From Leptotrichia sp. oral taxon 847 (lineage in GTDB: Bacteria; Fusobacteriota; Fusobacteriia; Fusobacteriales; Leptotrichiaceae), in the NCBI RefSeq assembly GCF_001553645.1, contig NZ_CP014231.1, positions 1,798,001-1,862,000 of the forward strand: DNA of 64,000 nt. Direction: 5' to 3'. How positions within the stretch are numbered: the first letter of the stretch is position 1; each line of letters begins with the position of its first letter. Positions 18,977 through 26,790 of the stretch are shown piece after piece. The notes under the pieces are model-generated. The model was given only the letters and a program-made list of their open reading frames with translations. It did not search any database and was not told the DNA's origin. Made by a program: the position numbers and the translations under genes.

Positions 18977-19059
18977 TAAATTTATTTAGTCAATTTATTT
19001 TTTTATTTAAAGCATAAATAAAATATATGTATTTATATAAAACTTATATATTTAAATTA
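18977..19059. other. AT-rich gap upstream of the arg leader promoter
   Basis: Together with the leader below, this forms a 369-bp stretch without an ordinary gene. This part holds no ORF. It contains CATAAATA...TATTTATA symmetry at about 19013-19036 that loosely resembles an ArgR (ARG) box, too degenerate to call. Confidence 0.3.
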
Positions 19060-19088
19060 TTGAAATTTTGTGATAAATATGGTATATT
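19060..19088 (+). promoter_or_regulatory. Promoter of the arginine leader transcript
   Basis: TTGAAA (19060-19065), 17-nt spacer, TATATT (19083-19088). The predicted start of transcription near 19095 gives about 35 nt before the leader ATG. Confidence 0.75.
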
Positions 19089-19128
19089 AATGTTGTAAAA
19101 TAAATTAAATGGAATGGAGTGAAATATT

Positions 19129-19209
19129 ATGAAATTAGTTAGAAGGATAAGGGAAAGAAAAATAATGACAATTTATTCGTGCAATCCTTTATCATTGCTA
19201 ATTTTTTAA
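19129..19209 (+). CDS. Arginine-codon leader peptide (26 aa)
   Basis: A 26-codon ORF with a good SD (GGAG 19116-19119, 9-nt spacing) that begins MKLVRRIRERK. Four of its first ten codons are Arg (AGA, AGG, AGG, AGA at residues 5, 6, 8 and 10), and AGG looks uncommon in neighbouring genes. The stop (19207-19209) overlaps the antiterminator arm. Its length, position after a promoter and before an intrinsic terminator, and proximity to argC make it a leader peptide for ribosome-mediated attenuation. Function is inferred from architecture; no homologue is recognised. Confidence 0.72.
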   Translation: MKLVRRIRERKIMTIYSCNPLSLLIF

Positions 19210-19265
19210 TATTTTTTAGGAATATAATATAAAAGTCAGCAATTTTGAAGTTGCTGGCTTTTTTT
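19181..19265 (+). promoter_or_regulatory. Transcription attenuator: pause hairpin, antiterminator and terminator 1
   Basis: Terminator: 19234-19242 pairs with 19251-19259 (9 bp, one G-U), with an 8-nt loop and seven T. Antiterminator: 19194-19206 pairs with 19231-19243 (12 of 13 positions, one wobble), using the same 5' arm. Protector hairpin: GCAAT 19181-19185 pairs with ATTGC 19194-19198. These are the mutually exclusive 1:2, 2:3 and 3:4 pairings of a classical attenuator. A ribosome stalled at the Arg codons leaves arm 2 free, so the antiterminator forms. A ribosome at the stop codon covers arm 2, so the terminator forms. Confidence 0.72.
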
Positions 19266-19292
19266 CCTTTAATTTAAAAATATTTAAAGAAA

Positions 19293-19317
19293 AAGGCCTA
19301 AAAACTAGGCTTTTTTT
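19293..19317 (+). terminator. Second intrinsic terminator before argC
   Basis: AAGGCCTA (19293-19300) pairs with TAGGCTTT (19306-19313) and is followed by T to 19317. It lies 28 nt upstream of the argC ATG, so the transcript must pass two terminators. A second alternative pairing exists (19213-19220 with 19297-19304, 8 bp) but is low-complexity. Confidence 0.7.
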
Positions 19318-19345
19318 ATTTAAAAAAAAGTAGGAGGAGAAAGAG

Positions 19346-20395
19346 ATGATAAAAGCAGGAATTGTAGGAGCAACAGGGTATGCAGGACAGCAGTTATTAT
19401 GGATTTTAAACAATCACAAAGAAGTGAAAGTGGAATTTATTTCATCGCATTCATTTACAGGAGAGAATATTGGAAATATTTATAAAAATTATAAAAAATA
19501 TTTTGAAAAAAAATTGATTTCGTTGGAAGAAATTAAAGAAAATCTGGATAAAATAGATGTACTATTTTTAGCACTACCTCATGGAATGTCAGAAAAGATA
19601 ACAAAATCAGCGCTTGAAAACAATGTAAAAGTCATAGATTTGGGAGCAGATTTTAGATTAGATGATTCAGAAATTTATGAAAAATGGTATAAAGTGAAAC
19701 ATAATTATCCAGAAATCAATAAAAATGCGGTTTATGGTCTTCCAGAACTTTATAAGGAAAAAATTAAAAATACGAAAGTTGTGGCGTCTCCTGGATGTTA
19801 TCCGACTTCAGCAATTTTGGGAGTGGCACCATTATTAAAAAATGAACTTATTGATACGAAAAAAATTGTTGTTGACTCAAAGTCAGGAGTTTCGGGAGCT
19901 GGAAGAAATGCTAAATTGGATTTGATTTATGCTGAAGTAAATGAAAATTTTAAGGCTTATAATGTTTTGAAGCATAGACATACATCTGAAATAAAGCAAG
20001 AGATGGATAAATTAGCGAATGGGAATATTAATTTAGTATTTACTCCGCATTTGTTGCCGATAAATAGAGGGATTCTTTCGACAATTTATTTGGATGTGAA
20101 AGATGAGTTTAAGGAAAGTTTGACAGAAAAAAAAATCTATGAGATTTATAATGAATTTTATAAAAATGAGTATTTTGTGAGAGTTACAAAAGATTTGCCA
20201 GAGATAAAAAATGTGAAAAATAGTAATATTTGCGAGATTGGGGTTCGATATGACAAGGAATTTGGGAACATCGTTGTCGTGTCGGCGATTGATAATTTAA
20301 TAAAAGGTGCTGGTGGACAGGCGGTTCAGAGTATGAACATTTTATTTGGATTTGAGGAAAGTGAAGGATTAGAATTTTTGTCGATGTATTTATAA
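19346..20395 (+). CDS. argC: N-acetyl-gamma-glutamyl-phosphate reductase
   Basis: Third step of arginine synthesis: NADPH-dependent reduction of N-acetylglutamyl phosphate to the semialdehyde. It has 349 residues with the Rossmann start GIVGATGYAGQQL (GxTGYAG at 8-14) and the catalytic cysteine in SPGCYPTS (Cys151). SD GGAGGAG. It is first gene of the arg cluster and lies directly behind the leader attenuator, so its transcription should respond to arginyl-tRNA supply if that model holds. Confidence 0.97.
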   Translation: MIKAGIVGATGYAGQQLLWILNNHKEVKVEFISSHSFTGENIGNIYKNYKKYFEKKLISLEEIKENLDKIDVLFLALPHGMSEKITKSALENNVKVIDLGADFRLDDSEIYEKWYKVKHNYPEINKNAVYGLPELYKEKIKNTKVVASPGCYPTSAILGVAPLLKNELIDTKKIVVDSKSGVSGAGRNAKLDLIYAEVNENFKAYNVLKHRHTSEIKQEMDKLANGNINLVFTPHLLPINRGILSTIYLDVKDEFKESLTEKKIYEIYNEFYKNEYFVRVTKDLPEIKNVKNSNICEIGVRYDKEFGNIVVVSAIDNLIKGAGGQAVQSMNILFGFEESEGLEFLSMYL

Positions 20396-20509: not shown

Positions 20510-21730
20510 ATGAAAATAATAGAGAATGGTACGATTACTGACGTTAAAGGGATTAAAGCGACTGGAATATCGGCAAAATTGAAAAAGAGCGGGAAAAAAG
20601 ATATGGCTTTGATTTATAGTGAAGAAAAGGCGGTTTCAGCTGCAGTTTTTACAAAAAATTTGGCAAAGGCTGCACCAATCATTTTGGATATCAAACATAT
20701 AAAAAATGAGAATACACAGGCGATTGTGGTAAATAGTGGGAATGCAAATTCTTGCACGGGAAATACTGGACTTGCGAATGCTAAAAAAATGACTGAGCTA
20801 GTTGCGAATAAATTGGGACTTAAAGCTGAGGAAGTTTTAGTTCAATCAACTGGGATTATTGGAGTTCAGCTTGATATGGAAAAAATTGAGAATGGGATTG
20901 AGAAAGTTGTGGAAAACTTGTCGGAAGATGGCGGAATTGATGCGGCTACTGCGATTATGACGACTGACACTTTTGTCAAGCAGATTTGCTTGGAAATTGA
21001 GATTGATGGGAAAAAGGCGAAAGTGGCTGGAATGTGCAAGGGTTCTGGAATGATTCATCCGAATATGGCGACAATGCTTTCATTTGCTGTAACTGATGTG
21101 AATATTGAAAAATTACTGTTGCAAAAAATGTTTTCTGAAATTGCTGACAACACTTTCAATATGATTTCAGTCGATGGAGATACGAGCACAAATGATATGG
21201 CTTGTGTTTTAGCGAATGGACTTGCAGGAAACGAGAAGATTGTTAATGAAGATTCGGTTGGATATGATGAGTTTAAAAAGGCATTGTATAAAGTGAATGA
21301 AGAATTGGCAAAATTGATCGCAAAAGATGGAGAAGGTGCGACAAAATTGATTCAAGTTACAACAAATGGAGCGAAAATGCTGGAAGATGCGAAAAAAGTT
21401 TCAAAATCAGTTATCACTTCAAGTCTTTTCAAAGCGGCAGTTTTTGGTGGCGACCCAAACTGGGGAAGAATTTTGTGTGCGGTTGGATATTCAGAAGCTG
21501 ATTTGATGATTGACAAGGTTAATATTTTCTTAAAAGATGGAAATGATATGGTTCAAGTTGCAAAAAATGGGATGGCACAGGATTTTGATGTTCCAAAAGC
21601 TGAGAAAATTTTAAAGTCTGAGACAGTTGAAATAATTATTGAATTAAATGATGGGGAGTTTGAAGCGACTGCTTGGGGATGTGATTTGAGTTATGATTAT
21701 GTGAAAATTAATGCGGAGTATCATACTTAA
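20510..21730 (+). CDS. argJ: Bifunctional ornithine acetyltransferase/N-acetylglutamate synthase
   Basis: Transfers the acetyl group from N-acetylornithine to glutamate, recycling it; in bifunctional forms it also uses acetyl-CoA. It has 406 residues with the autoproteolysis site NMATML (cleavage Ala187/Thr188, Thr being the nucleophile) and GDPNWGR in the beta chain. The start agrees with the usual family N-terminus. The only SD is 57 nt upstream behind a hairpin. The presence of argJ means the cyclic acetyl pathway is used. Whether it is mono- or bifunctional cannot be read here; no argA/argE is seen. Confidence 0.96.
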   Translation: MKIIENGTITDVKGIKATGISAKLKKSGKKDMALIYSEEKAVSAAVFTKNLAKAAPIILDIKHIKNENTQAIVVNSGNANSCTGNTGLANAKKMTELVANKLGLKAEEVLVQSTGIIGVQLDMEKIENGIEKVVENLSEDGGIDAATAIMTTDTFVKQICLEIEIDGKKAKVAGMCKGSGMIHPNMATMLSFAVTDVNIEKLLLQKMFSEIADNTFNMISVDGDTSTNDMACVLANGLAGNEKIVNEDSVGYDEFKKALYKVNEELAKLIAKDGEGATKLIQVTTNGAKMLEDAKKVSKSVITSSLFKAAVFGGDPNWGRILCAVGYSEADLMIDKVNIFLKDGNDMVQVAKNGMAQDFDVPKAEKILKSETVEIIIELNDGEFEATAWGCDLSYDYVKINAEYHT

Positions 21731-21874
21731 TAATTTTTAAAATAAAATTTATGATTTTAAGAATTATTTGTTAGTAAGTTTTTCAAGATAAATTTTTAAA
21801 AGAATTATTTATAAAATTAAATTTTTGAAAAATTAAAAAAGAAGAAAAATTTTAATAATGAAGAAAGGGAAAAT

Positions 21875-22762
21875 ATGATTTCAAATTTAGATAAAGCAAA
21901 AATTTTGGTAAAGGCATTGCCGTTTATAAAAAAGTATCATAGTAAAACGATTGTGATTAAATATGGTGGAAGTGCGATGGTTAATCCTGTTGCACGTGAG
22001 CAGTTTATTCAAGATGTAGTTCTTATGAAATATGTTGGGATAAATCCTGTGATTGTGCACGGTGGAGGGCCTGAGATAAACGAGATGCTTCAAAAAATTG
22101 GGAAAGAGAGCAAATTTGTTGCAGGAAATCGTGTGACTGATGAAGAAACAATGGAGATTGTGGAAATGGTGTTATCTGGGAAAGTCAATAAAGGAATTGT
22201 GTCAGACATCAATAAATATGGTGGGAAAGCTGTTGGTCTAAGTGGAAAAGACGGAAATATGGTGTTTGTTGAGAAGAAGTTTGTTGAAGTTAATGGAGAA
22301 AAGGTTGATATCGGATTTGTCGGAGAGATTAAGGAAATTAATACGGAAGTTATAAAATTGTTGGAGATAAATGATGCAATTCCTGTGATTTCATCGATTG
22401 GAGTAGACAAAAATGGTAAGACATATAATATTAATGCGGATTATGTGGCAGGTGCGATTGCTGGGAAATTACAGGCAGATAGATTGATATTTTTGACAGA
22501 TGTTGATGGAATTTTGCTTGATTACAATGATAAACAGACACTTATTGATGAAATTGATGTGGAAAATGTGAACGATTTAATCGAGCGAGGAATTATTAGT
22601 GGTGGAATGTTGCCAAAAGTTACAACTTGCTTGAATGCGATTGAAAATGGCGTGGAAAATGTTGTTATTCTAAATGGAAAATTGGAACATTCTGTGATTC
22701 TTGAGTTGTTTACAGTCGAAGGAGCTGGAACACTTATAAAAAAGGATAATTCTATTGACTAA
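21875..22762 (+). CDS. argB: Acetylglutamate kinase
   Basis: ATP-dependent phosphorylation of N-acetylglutamate, the second committed step and the usual point of arginine feedback. It has 295 residues of the amino-acid kinase fold: IKYGGSAM near 28-35, VHGGGPEI near 61-68, and the C-terminal nucleotide region VDGILLD. An N-terminal extension helix (SNLDKAKILVKALPFIKKY) is present, the feature linked to hexameric, arginine-inhibited enzymes. SD GAAAGGG. A 144-nt AT-rich gap separates it from argJ. Confidence 0.96.
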   Translation: MISNLDKAKILVKALPFIKKYHSKTIVIKYGGSAMVNPVAREQFIQDVVLMKYVGINPVIVHGGGPEINEMLQKIGKESKFVAGNRVTDEETMEIVEMVLSGKVNKGIVSDINKYGGKAVGLSGKDGNMVFVEKKFVEVNGEKVDIGFVGEIKEINTEVIKLLEINDAIPVISSIGVDKNGKTYNINADYVAGAIAGKLQADRLIFLTDVDGILLDYNDKQTLIDEIDVENVNDLIERGIISGGMLPKVTTCLNAIENGVENVVILNGKLEHSVILELFTVEGAGTLIKKDNSID

Positions 22763-22814
22763 AAACAGTATTTAAAAGGAGTAATAGAAACGAATGAAAT
22801 AAAAAAATATAGTG

Positions 22815-22870
22815 AGAGGAGTGTCTGATATTTTATATAATTATTTATATATTTATTATACGAGAATATT
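22815..22870 (+). promoter_or_regulatory. Shine-Dalgarno plus spacer hairpin (copy 3)
   Basis: SD AGAGGAG (22815-22821), 1 nt, then a hairpin closed by G22823-C22861: lower stem of eight positions (one C-T mismatch, one G-U), a 3x2 internal loop, a 7-bp upper stem (22834-22840 with 22845-22851) and a 4-nt loop. Exactly 9 nt then lead to ATG 22871. Confidence 0.75.
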
Positions 22871-23709
22871 ATGAAAAAAAGATGTATTTTATTTTTATTA
22901 GGATTAATAATTTCAATAAATGGTCTAGCAGAAACAAATATGGAGTTGGCAAAAAAATATTATGAAAAAGGAGATTATACACAAGCAATTAAATATTATA
23001 AATTAGTTGAGAAGGAAAATAGCGATGATTCAGAGTCTGCAATATTTAGGTTAGGATATATTTACCAGAAGCAAAAAAATTATGATGACGCTGAAAAATA
23101 TTACAAAATATTAGCGGATAAAGGATACACAACAGCAATGATTAATTTATCAAATGTTTATAAAGAAAAAAAAGATTTTGGAAATATGGAATTATATCTT
23201 AGGGCAGCGGCAGATAAAGGGAATTTAGATGCTATGTATAATTTAGGAAATTGGTATGGAAAATCAGGATTATTTTCTAAAGCAGAAGCATATTTAAAAA
23301 CAGCGAGTGAAAATGGACATTTAAAAGCGACTTATAATTTGGCACTTTTATATTCTAGAGCAGGTTCAAAATATTATTCTCAAAGTGAAAAATATTTTAA
23401 ATTGGCTAGTGAAAAAGGTCTTATAGAAGCAACAAACAATTTAGGAATACTTTATAAAAATAAAAAAAGTATGCTGAAGCTGAAAAATATTTAAAAAACG
23501 CATTAGAAATATTAATTCAAAAACCTGATTATAAAAGTGATACTGAAAATTTAGAAGGTCTTATAAATGATAATTTAGGTGATTTATATAAAGAAATGAA
23601 AAAATACGATGAATCGGAAAAATATTATAAACAAGCGATAAAAACTAAATTTAAAAAAGCAGAAGAAGATTTACAGGATTTATATAAACTGATGAAAAAT
23701 AAAAAATAA
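22871..23709 (+). pseudogene. Secreted TPR/Sel1-like repeat protein, frameshifted
   Basis: A signal peptide (residues 1-20, ending NGLA) is followed by tetratricopeptide-type repeats (AKKYYEKGDYTQAIKYYKL, AEKYYKILADKGYTTAMINL and further copies). The first frame ends at 23494 after NKKSMLKLKNI. One A added to the seven-A tract 23462-23468 restores NKKKYAEAEKYLK and a continuous repeat protein of about 279 residues to TAA 23707-23709. It may be periplasmic or outer-membrane associated; the partner is unknown. It is inserted between argB and argD, apparently unrelated to arginine synthesis. Translation is expected to start through the hairpin-spaced SD. Confidence 0.75.
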
Positions 23710-23724
23710 AGGAGAAAATTAAAA

Positions 23725-24912
23725 ATGTTATTAAATGTGTATAGCCGTTATAATAAAATATTTGAAAAAGGAAAAGGGATGTATATTTACGACAATGAAG
23801 GAAATGAATACTTAGACTTTGTATCAGGAATTTCGGTAAATTGCTTGGGACATGCAAGTCCCGTGATTACAAAGGCTTTGACGGAGCAGAGTCAAAAACT
23901 GGTGCATATTTCTAATTTGTATTACAGTCAGCCACAATTGGATTTAGCGAATAAACTTACTGAAAATAGTGAAATGGAGAGAGTTTTTTTTACAAATAGT
24001 GGAACTGAAGCGATTGAGTTGGCTTTAAAAATTGCTCGAAAATATGGGAATAATTTGTCGTACGATAAAACTGGAAATAAAATTGCTGATAAGACAGAAA
24101 TAATCTATATGAAAAATTCGTTTCATGGAAGAAGTACTGGAGCGTTGGCAGTTACTGGTCAGCCGAAGTATCAAAAACCATTTGAGCCGTTGATGAAAAA
24201 TGTTACTGAGTGCAATTTTAATGATGTTAAAGATTTAAAAGCTAAAGTAAGCAAAAAAACTGCTGCTATTATTTTGGAGCCAATTCAAGGAGAAAGTGGA
24301 CTTGAGAGTGCTACGCCTGAATTTATGGAACCTATAAAAGAATTGAGCAAAAAATATGATACACTCGTAATTTTTGATGAAATCCAATGTGGAATGGGAA
24401 GAACTGGGAAATTATTCGCATATGAAAATTTTGATTTAGTTCCAGATATAGTTACAATTGCGAAATCACTTGGTGGCGGAGTTCCAATCGGAGCTTGTCT
24501 GACAAAAGGGAAAGCAAATGATGTGCTGGTTCCTGGCGACCACGGTTCAACTTATGGTGGAAATCCTTTGGTTTGTGCCGTTGCAAATGCTGTTTTACAC
24601 GAATTAATTGACAACAAATTAATTGAAAAAAATGTTGTGGAAAAAGGCCAGTATTCTGTGGAAAAATTGGAAAAATTAAAAGTAAAATTCGATTTTATCG
24701 AAGAAATTCGTGGAAAAGGACTTCTTTTGGGAATAAAATTTGATGAGAAAAAAGTTTTGGCAAAAGATGTTGTTTCAAAAGCACTAGAAAATGGGTTGTT
24801 GCTAGTTGGAGCTGGAAATAATGTTGTGAGATTTTTTCCGCCGTTTAATGTGACAGATGGGGAAATTGACAAAGCTATTTCGATTTTGGAAAAAGTTTTG
24901 AAAAAATTCTAA
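23725..24912 (+). CDS. argD: Acetylornithine aminotransferase
   Basis: PLP-dependent class III aminotransferase, 395 residues, converting N-acetylglutamate semialdehyde to N-acetylornithine. Key features are SGTEAIELALK (near 92-102), FDEIQCGMGRTG (217-228, with Asp218 contacting the PLP ring nitrogen) and the Schiff-base lysine in TIAKSLGGG (Lys247). SD AAGGAG lies 16 nt after the TPR stop. It fits between argB and argF in the pathway. Confidence 0.96.
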   Translation: MLLNVYSRYNKIFEKGKGMYIYDNEGNEYLDFVSGISVNCLGHASPVITKALTEQSQKLVHISNLYYSQPQLDLANKLTENSEMERVFFTNSGTEAIELALKIARKYGNNLSYDKTGNKIADKTEIIYMKNSFHGRSTGALAVTGQPKYQKPFEPLMKNVTECNFNDVKDLKAKVSKKTAAIILEPIQGESGLESATPEFMEPIKELSKKYDTLVIFDEIQCGMGRTGKLFAYENFDLVPDIVTIAKSLGGGVPIGACLTKGKANDVLVPGDHGSTYGGNPLVCAVANAVLHELIDNKLIEKNVVEKGQYSVEKLEKLKVKFDFIEEIRGKGLLLGIKFDEKKVLAKDVVSKALENGLLLVGAGNNVVRFFPPFNVTDGEIDKAISILEKVLKKF

Positions 24913-24951
24913 TTTTAGGAATTTTTTATAATTCAATTTTTTGATTTAACG

Positions 24952-24971
24952 AAAATCAATTCTGATTTTTT
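24952..24971 (+). terminator. Weak terminator after argD
   Basis: AAAATCA (24952-24958) pairs with TGATTTT (24963-24969), followed by T to 24971. The stem is AT-rich and short, so efficiency is doubtful. The rest of the 238-bp gap to the next gene shows nothing further. Confidence 0.4.
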
Positions 24972-25150
24972 CATAATATTTGTTTCATTAAATTTTCAAT
25001 TTTTAAAATAATATAATTTTCGAGTAATCCTATTTTTAAAAGACAAAAGTTTTTGAAAAAAATTTCTTCTTATAATTGTAAATTAGAAATTATTAAGGTA
25101 AAATTATACTAAAAAGAGCAAAAAAATTTAGAGTTAAAGGGGAGACTTTT

Positions 25151-25693
25151 ATGAAAATTTTTAGAAAAATTGCAATCCTTTTTATTTTAGCTAGTTTGAC
25201 GAATTTCAGTGCGTCAAATATCGAAGGGAAAATCACTCAGATTAGGAAGGATTTTGCAAGTACTAATGCTGTAAAAGATTATGTGATTAAGGAAGTTGAA
25301 GATTCGGAGCAGAGTACAGATGGCGGCGTTGTGAAGTATTATTTTCAAAATGGAGTTGTTAAAAAAATTGTGGTTGAACATTTTGGGGAAAGTTGGAATA
25401 GTTTGACGGAATATTATGTAAAAAATGGAAAAGTTTATTTTATTTTTGATAAGACTGAAAAATATAATGTGCCATATTATGTGGATTCTAAATGGTATAA
25501 AGAAAATAAGATAAAAAATGGAGAAGTCTTTGATAAAAGAAAGTCGAAATTTTCTGAAAAACGATACTATTTTGATGAAAATGAAAAATTGATTCGGTAT
25601 ATTGGTGAGAATAAAAAAATTGTTGAAAATGGACAAAAATTGAGGGAAATTGAAAAAAATGTGTTGAATGAGTATTACAGAATAAAAAAATAA
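25151..25693 (+). CDS. Secreted protein of unknown function
   Basis: 180 residues with a clear signal peptide (KIFRKIAILFILASLTNFSAS, cleavage near 21). The mature part is Lys- and Tyr-rich, with several YYF/YYV strands (about 70-160) and alternating charged strands that suggest a beta-rich fold such as the MORN-like or toxin-antidote repeats seen in fusobacterial surface proteins. I do not recognise a family. SD AAAGGGGAG. It lies between argD and argF. Confidence 0.7.
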   Translation: MKIFRKIAILFILASLTNFSASNIEGKITQIRKDFASTNAVKDYVIKEVEDSEQSTDGGVVKYYFQNGVVKKIVVEHFGESWNSLTEYYVKNGKVYFIFDKTEKYNVPYYVDSKWYKENKIKNGEVFDKRKSKFSEKRYYFDENEKLIRYIGENKKIVENGQKLREIEKNVLNEYYRIKK

Positions 25694-25737
25694 CATAGCT
25701 AGTTATAAAAGTAAAAATTGTAAAAATTGAATAATAG

Positions 25738-25757
25738 CAAGGGGTCTTGGCCCCTTG
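25738..25757 (+). other. GC-rich hairpin upstream of argF
   Basis: CAAGGGG and CCCCTTG form a perfect 7-bp stem around TCTTGG, unusually GC-rich for this DNA. No T-tract follows. It lies 31 nt before the argF ATG. It could be a processing site or a decayed terminator. Confidence 0.45.
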
Positions 25758-25788
25758 TCGTGGAATAATAAAAATTAAGGAGAATTTT

Positions 25789-26790
25789 ATGATAAAAGGA
25801 AAATCATTTTTGAAATTATTAGATTTTAGTAAAGGCGAAATTCAATATTTAATTGATTTGGCTAAAAAGTTAAAAAAAGATAAGAAAAAGGGAATTGAGA
25901 AAAAAACATTGATTGGGAAAAATATTGCGTTGATTTTTGAAAAAACATCTACTAGAACGAGATGTGCCTTTGAAGTAGCCGCTTATGATCAAGGTGCAAA
26001 TGTTACTTATCTTGGACCTTCAACTTCACAGATTGGAGATAAGGAATCAATGGAAGATACGGCGAAAGTACTGGGAAGATTTTATGATGGAATTGAATAT
26101 CGAGGATACGGTCAAGAATTGGTCGAAACTTTGGCTAAGTATTCAGGTGTGCCTGTGTGGAACGGACTTACAACAGAGTTTCATCCAACGCAAGTTCTCG
26201 CAGATTTTTTGACAATCTTGGAAAAAAAAGGAAGATTAAAAGGAATAAAATTTGCATTTTTAGGTGATGGAAAAAACAATATGGCAAATTCTTTAATGAT
26301 CGGTGCTGCCAAGTTTGGAATGGATTTTAGAATTGTTTGTCCGAAAGAATATTTTCCTGAAGAAAAATTAGTTGAAGAAGCTAGAAAAATTGCCAAAAAA
26401 ACTAGTGGAAAAATTTTGCTGACAGAAGATAGAATTGAAGGGGTGAAAGATGCCGATGTCGTTTATACTGATGTTTGGGTATCAATGGGAGAGCCAAAAG
26501 AAATTTGGAAAGAAAGAATTGATAAATTGTTTCCATATCAAGTAAATTCTGATTTAGTAAAGCATTGTGCAAACGATTACTTGTTCATGCACTGTTTACC
26601 AGCGTTTCATGATTTAAATACGAAAGTTGCGAAAAACATTGAAAAAGAATATGGCTTGAAAGAAATGGAAGTTACTGACGAAGTTTTCAGAAGTAAAAAT
26701 TCTGTTGTGTTTGATGAGGCGGAAAATCGTATGCATACGATAAAGGCTGTGATGGTGGCGACATTGGGAGATAGAGAATATCCGATGTAA
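25789..26790 (+). CDS. argF: Ornithine carbamoyltransferase
   Basis: Condenses ornithine with carbamoyl phosphate to citrulline. It has 333 residues with the carbamoyl-phosphate loop STRTR (54-58), HPTQ near 125-128, and HCLPAFHD near the ornithine site. The start ATG 25789 follows AAGGAG; an upstream extension in frame has no SD. Placement after argD supports the anabolic enzyme, although catabolic arcB homologues are close in sequence. argG and argH are not in the window. Confidence 0.93.

Follow-up and report, generated by a model that had tools for sequence, protein, structure and literature searches.

The stretch of DNA analyzed here, which we call the window, comprises 64 kb of the 2.19 Mb, single-contig genome of Leptotrichia sp. 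oral taxon 847. It carries an argC-J-B-D-F cluster, whose argC gene has its nearest named relatives in a Leptotrichiaceae MAG and in Leptotrichia sp. oral taxon 879. Two genes within the cluster (22871-23494 and 25151-25693) have no NCBIfam match; one of them has TPR-like repeats. The intergenic region in front of argC lies downstream of a co-oriented gmhA-like gene. It contains a conserved promoter and, between this and the cluster, a short leader ORF with arginine codons near its start (Table 1).

Table 1. Features of the argC upstream region and of the arg cluster, in window positions.
Feature	Position	Strand	Details
Promoter	19060..19088	+	sigma-70-type; -35 TTGAAA, 17-nt spacer, extended -10 (TG) TATATT; from sequence and alignment
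Shine-Dalgarno sequence of leader ORF	19116..19119	+	GGAG, 9 nt 5' of ATG; SD-like sites also in relatives
Leader peptide ORF	19129..19209	+	MKLVRRIRERKIMTIYSCNPLSLLIF; 26 codons, MKLVRRIRERK...; Arg codons 5, 6, 8, 10
Region 1	19131..19154	+	start-codon helix strand 19131-19139 (with 19197-19205) and Arg-codon strand 19146-19154 (with 19185-19193)
Region 2	19185..19206	+	partner of region 1 in two segments, 19185-19193 and 19197-19205; alternative pairing of 19194-19206 with region 3
Region 3	19231..19243	+	5' arm of terminator 1, or antiterminator strand opposite region 2; from folding and alignment
Terminator 1	19231..19262	+	14 bp, tetraloop, U7 tract
Region 4	19256..19265	+	terminator 1, 3' arm with U tract; possible pairing with 19289-19298
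Region 5	19289..19298	+	possible pairing with region 4; shares positions with 5' arm of terminator 2
Terminator 2	19292..19314	+	9 bp, U tract; directly 5' of argC ribosome-binding site
argC	19346..20395	+	predicted first regulated gene; NCBIfam TIGR01850, 435 bits (cut-off 233.6)
argJ, argB, TPR-like gene, argD, unnamed gene, argF	20510..26790	+	argJ, argB, argD and argF over NCBIfam cut-off

An earlier sequence-only reading of this DNA had pointed to the promoter hexamers and their spacing, and to the leader ORF with its Shine-Dalgarno (SD) sequence and four arginine codons among the first ten. Both are present as described, the promoter with an extended -10 TG in addition. In 17 aligned sequences the promoter columns ATTGA and TGnTATAnT are near-invariant, and every aligned Leptotrichiaceae-type locus keeps the promoter in the same position. 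An AT-rich block 5' of the -35 hexamer (AAAACTTATATATTTAA; 19030-19064) is kept in relatives as well and may be an UP element or some operator.

The arginine codons of the leader are, in order, AGA, AGG, AGG and AGA. Because arginine accounts for 2.75% of the codons in fourteen neighbouring ORFs, four arginine codons within nine would be expected by chance with a probability of about 6e-5. Among the plus-strand ORFs of 10-60 codons in the window, the leader is the only one that combines an SD sequence with four arginine codons in the first ten. The minus strand has one such ORF. When the intergenic region was simulated 5000 times with a first-order Markov model, one sequence had a comparable arginine-rich ORF with SD sequence.

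The arrangement extends far beyond this genome. In a sample of 96 Fusobacteriales genomes, 31 have a full-length argC match, and leaders with arginine codons precede argC in 26 of these, in ten genera. An automatic filter (a short ORF with at least three arginine codons near its start) detected 23 of them; L019, L034 and L039, where the corresponding position holds an ORF containing two AGG codons, were added. The five loci without a leader are L035, L043, L045, L046 and G094, and in L035, L043 and L046 argC follows closely 3' of another gene. Start codon, SD sequence and arginine codons are kept in every clade despite diverging RNA sequence. Fourteen family genomes, all of them argC-bearing, contain a single copy each of the ORF motif AGRAGGATAAGGGA, and a covariance model of the leader matches once in each of 18 of the 96 genomes, namely the 17 family genomes with full-length argC and G051, always at the argC locus. 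Comparable ORFs in front of argG were found at only 2 of 43 loci, neither of them shared with relatives, and none beyond chance. The argG gene lies apart from the arg cluster (G000:C1:461206, which is L092, and other loci), and the argG loci scanned have no Rfam match. Twelve argC loci from other phyla have no arginine leader save chance-like ORFs (one Chloroflexi locus).

AGG makes up 40 of the 62 arginine codons in the leaders (65%), and every leader contains at least two. By comparison, AGG accounts for 33/161 arginine codons (20%) in argC of these leader-bearing genomes and for 5/131 (3.8%) in the genes of the window. The natural reading is that AGG, a rare arginine codon, would be the conserved control codon and the leader a rare-codon sensor, with the caveat on codon choice that the 1:2 RNA pairing described below also fixes the AGG codons of Leptotrichiaceae. 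Rare control codons have a precedent in the leucine codons of E. coli leuL.

RNA folding places the coding part of the leader itself, including the start-codon region and the arginine codons, in an 18-bp stem formed by regions 1 and 2 (1:2 stem). In a sequence-only alignment of 18 Leptotrichiaceae-type leaders, 87% of the cells in the 1:2 stem and the terminators are paired, compared with at most 52% for slid versions, and 13 pairs are changed on both sides. Within the start-codon helix, 4 of 9 pairs show double changes (G-U to U-A, A-U to U-A, G-C to A-U and A-U to G-C), although this is coding sequence. Across nine clades, pairing of region 1 with region 2 of its own clade gives -18.1 kcal/mol, as opposed to -13.9 kcal/mol when the partners are swapped, with none of 2000 permutations reaching that value. 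The leader start also pairs with a stretch 3' of the arginine codons in L036, L039 and L040, which belong to other genera. By these comparisons, the predicted 1:2 stem that holds the control codons is conserved, and its covariation is clear. The pairing 19181-19185:19194-19198 is a 5-bp alternative found in the closest relatives only, and we reject it as the main 1:2 stem.

When a ribosome is placed on the arginine codons, the rest of the nascent RNA folds into 19194-19199:19238-19243 and 19201-19206:19231-19236, the antiterminator formed by regions 2 and 3 (2:3). Terminator 1 folds instead if the ribosome is positioned at the stop codon. Stalled-ribosome folds yield the 2:3 pairing in nearly all clades, while L016 has a different optimum, and 61% of the 2:3 cells on the alignment are paired in the register of the window. 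In the cross-clade test with nine clades, 61 of 2000 permutations were as good as the 2:3 pairing and one of three control pairings reached a similar 62 of 2000, so that covariation argues only modestly for the antiterminator, less strongly than the comparisons argue for the leader, the 1:2 stem and the terminators. For the arms of terminator 1, compared within their own clade and swapped between the nine clades, 0 of 2000 permutations were as good. The U tract of this terminator is interrupted in L002-type and L028-type leaders, where it may therefore be weaker. L036-L038, L040, L042 and L044 (genera g19, g24 and g25) share a conserved element of AAAGATT, a small hairpin and ATGAGTATAcAAAA, located 3' of the leader and 5' of terminator 1, where the putative 2:3 stem would have its loop. 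It is possibly a pause signal or a spacer, and has no Rfam match in L036, L040 or L044.

The sequence-only reading had proposed three mutually exclusive pairings. Its antiterminator (19194-19206:19231-19243) and terminator 1 are possible as described, but the first stem, 19181-19185:19194-19198, is a minor one. Covariation is clear for the revised 1:2 stem and modest for 2:3; the arginine codons are conserved upstream of argC in close relatives. The view that the leader stop codon sits on the antiterminator arm at a conserved position does not hold: the stop (19207-19209) abuts the arm, and its position differs in L017, L020 and L022. In L022, a Leptotrichia species, the stop ends the leader after 13 codons and the RNA further 3' is kept. 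A ribosome at this early stop would not mask region 2, which counts against the attenuator model.

Terminator 2 had no place in the earlier account. Two tandem terminators lie 3' of all leaders tested (24 sequences), with little common sequence between distant genera, and argC loci without a leader have no comparable terminators. In Leptotrichia-type leaders, region 4 can pair with region 5 (4:5): in 7 of 7 leaders, at most 2.3% of shuffles show complementarity as good. In the window, L016, L018, L019, L002 and L022, the 4:5 fold equals or exceeds that of terminator 2 in stability. The pairing would also be available before terminator 2 during transcription. On the alignment, 81% of the 4:5 cells are paired, but the A and U tracts raise slid versions to as much as 68%. 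In the shuffle test, the 4:5 pairing is not significant in L027, L028, L031, L034, L036 and L039. As significance is confined to Leptotrichia-type leaders, we propose a 4:5 coupling between the terminators solely for the lineage to which the window belongs, and it does not account for how terminator 2 is overcome elsewhere. Other upstream partners of terminator 2 were sought outside Leptotrichia; region 2 offers candidates in L027, L036 and L039, none of them clearly beyond shuffles, and they were rejected. L040, L042 and L044 have a leader, two terminators, a second arginine leader and a third terminator, apparently a double attenuator, with the paired leader ORFs at -456/-192, -450/-189 and about -540/-258, respectively, upstream of argC.

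The arginine repressor ArgR (PF01316) has no match over the cut-off in the 96 genomes of the order, whereas 9 of 14 control genomes match. A scan of the window and ten other arg loci against Rfam found no family at gathering score, the T-box included, and a T-box or other Rfam family was rejected as the identity of the leader for this reason.

Together, the comparisons speak strongly for a ribosome-mediated transcription attenuator that very probably senses charged arginyl-tRNA, above all the AGG-reading isoacceptor. The sequence-only reading had proposed an arginine attenuator, and this proposal gains support from the arginine codons and alternative pairings kept in close relatives, from the same layout in divergent sequence before argC in ten genera, and from an order in which ArgR is undetectable. 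The best reading of the sequences is that the attenuator, with its tandem terminator, stands in for ArgR.

We infer the following course of events. When arginine is plentiful, the ribosome would pass the arginine codons to the end of the ORF and mask region 2, or would be released, so that the 1:2 stem re-forms. Region 3 would then pair with region 4 as terminator 1, terminator 2 would also fold, and transcription would end before argC. When arginine is short, the ribosome would stall on codons 5-10 for want of charged tRNA-Arg and cover region 1, and the freed region 2 would pair with region 3, preventing terminator 1. In Leptotrichia, the released region 4 would go on to pair with region 5, preventing terminator 2 as well, and RNA polymerase would reach argC. 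Such a domino, in which 2:3 frees region 4 and 4:5 disarms terminator 2, would widen the regulatory range if true. The full proposal, an order-wide arginine attenuator that replaces ArgR in Fusobacteriales together with a Leptotrichia domino in which one stalled ribosome disarms two serial terminators, is tentative, and we lean slightly against its holding in every part.

Short arginine-rich peptides next to an arginine gene could also be arrest peptides that sense free arginine or ornithine in the ribosome tunnel, as SpeFL and the fungal arginine attenuator peptide do, rather than counters of charged tRNA, and arginine- or ornithine-responsive upstream ORFs are indeed known (PMC6386406; PMC11550727). 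We consider this improbable, as the leader peptides of different genera have little in common except their arginine codons, with no conserved nascent-peptide sequence. The peptide tail PLS was considered as an arrest motif and rejected, because L022 and L027 retain the segment at the RNA level although their reading frame is lost or ends sooner.

The leader RNA could instead be a riboswitch or a protein-bound attenuator, with translation of the ORF of little import. Its strongly conserved blocks, GATAAGGG and CCYTTRTC, and its long 1:2 stem would fit such an RNA. This is quite improbable, however, given that it is the start codon, SD sequence and arginine codons that persist in every clade while the RNA diverges, that the Rfam scan gave no match at gathering score, and that, in the manner of classical attenuators, the coding sequence makes up the stem. 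It is highly improbable that the terminators merely end transcription from the gmhA-like gene and that the ORF is there by chance. The intergenic region does lie 3' of this gene on the same strand, but a conserved promoter intervenes, and the terminators go with the leader, which is present at 26 of 31 argC loci and without which argC loci lack them.

Arginine synthesis is a textbook case of repressor control. If the attenuator reading is true, much of a bacterial order would control this pathway by attenuation, with a rare-codon sensor and two serial terminators, and the system would open two questions to experiment: the reason for rare codons in attenuators, and a possible widening of the response by serial terminators. 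Gene regulation has received little study in these bacteria of the mouth and gut. The earlier statement that no leader-peptide arginine attenuator is known in fusobacteria agrees with the open-access literature, which yields none there and no leader attenuator before bacterial arginine-synthesis genes in general; subscription papers were outside its scope, so that absence is not proven. The main text of a motif survey that includes Leptotrichia buccalis does not mention arginine.

The trp, his, leu, thr and ilv operons have classical ribosome-mediated attenuators. The argC leader resembles them in having codons for the amino acid of the pathway, predicted 1:2, 2:3 and 3:4 pairings that would exclude one another and a terminator before the first gene, but differs in that arginine would be sensed, in its occurrence in Fusobacteriota, in the two serial terminators per leader and in the position of the leader start codon inside the 1:2 stem. 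Classical attenuators are known in Actinobacteria, where a comparative study found no RNA regulation of arginine operons and cited T-boxes elsewhere (PMC1262725). Those arginine T-box leaders respond at the RNA level to uncharged tRNA-Arg, as the argC leader would, but without a leader peptide. Repression of arg operons by ArgR/AhrC serves the same physiological task, but through a protein repressor, which is undetectable in Fusobacteriales. In the fungal arginine attenuator peptide of arg-2/CPA1 (PMC11550727), an upstream ORF lowers the expression of arginine-synthesis genes under plentiful arginine, as the argC leader would; this system is eukaryotic and translational, and depends on a conserved nascent peptide and free arginine. 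In the orf34 leader of Salmonella speF (PMC6386406), ribosome pausing at arginine codons of a short upstream ORF alters mRNA folding, much as we propose here. It acts on an ornithine decarboxylase through Rho, RNase G and translation, whereas the argC leader would act through an intrinsic terminator placed before arginine-synthesis genes.
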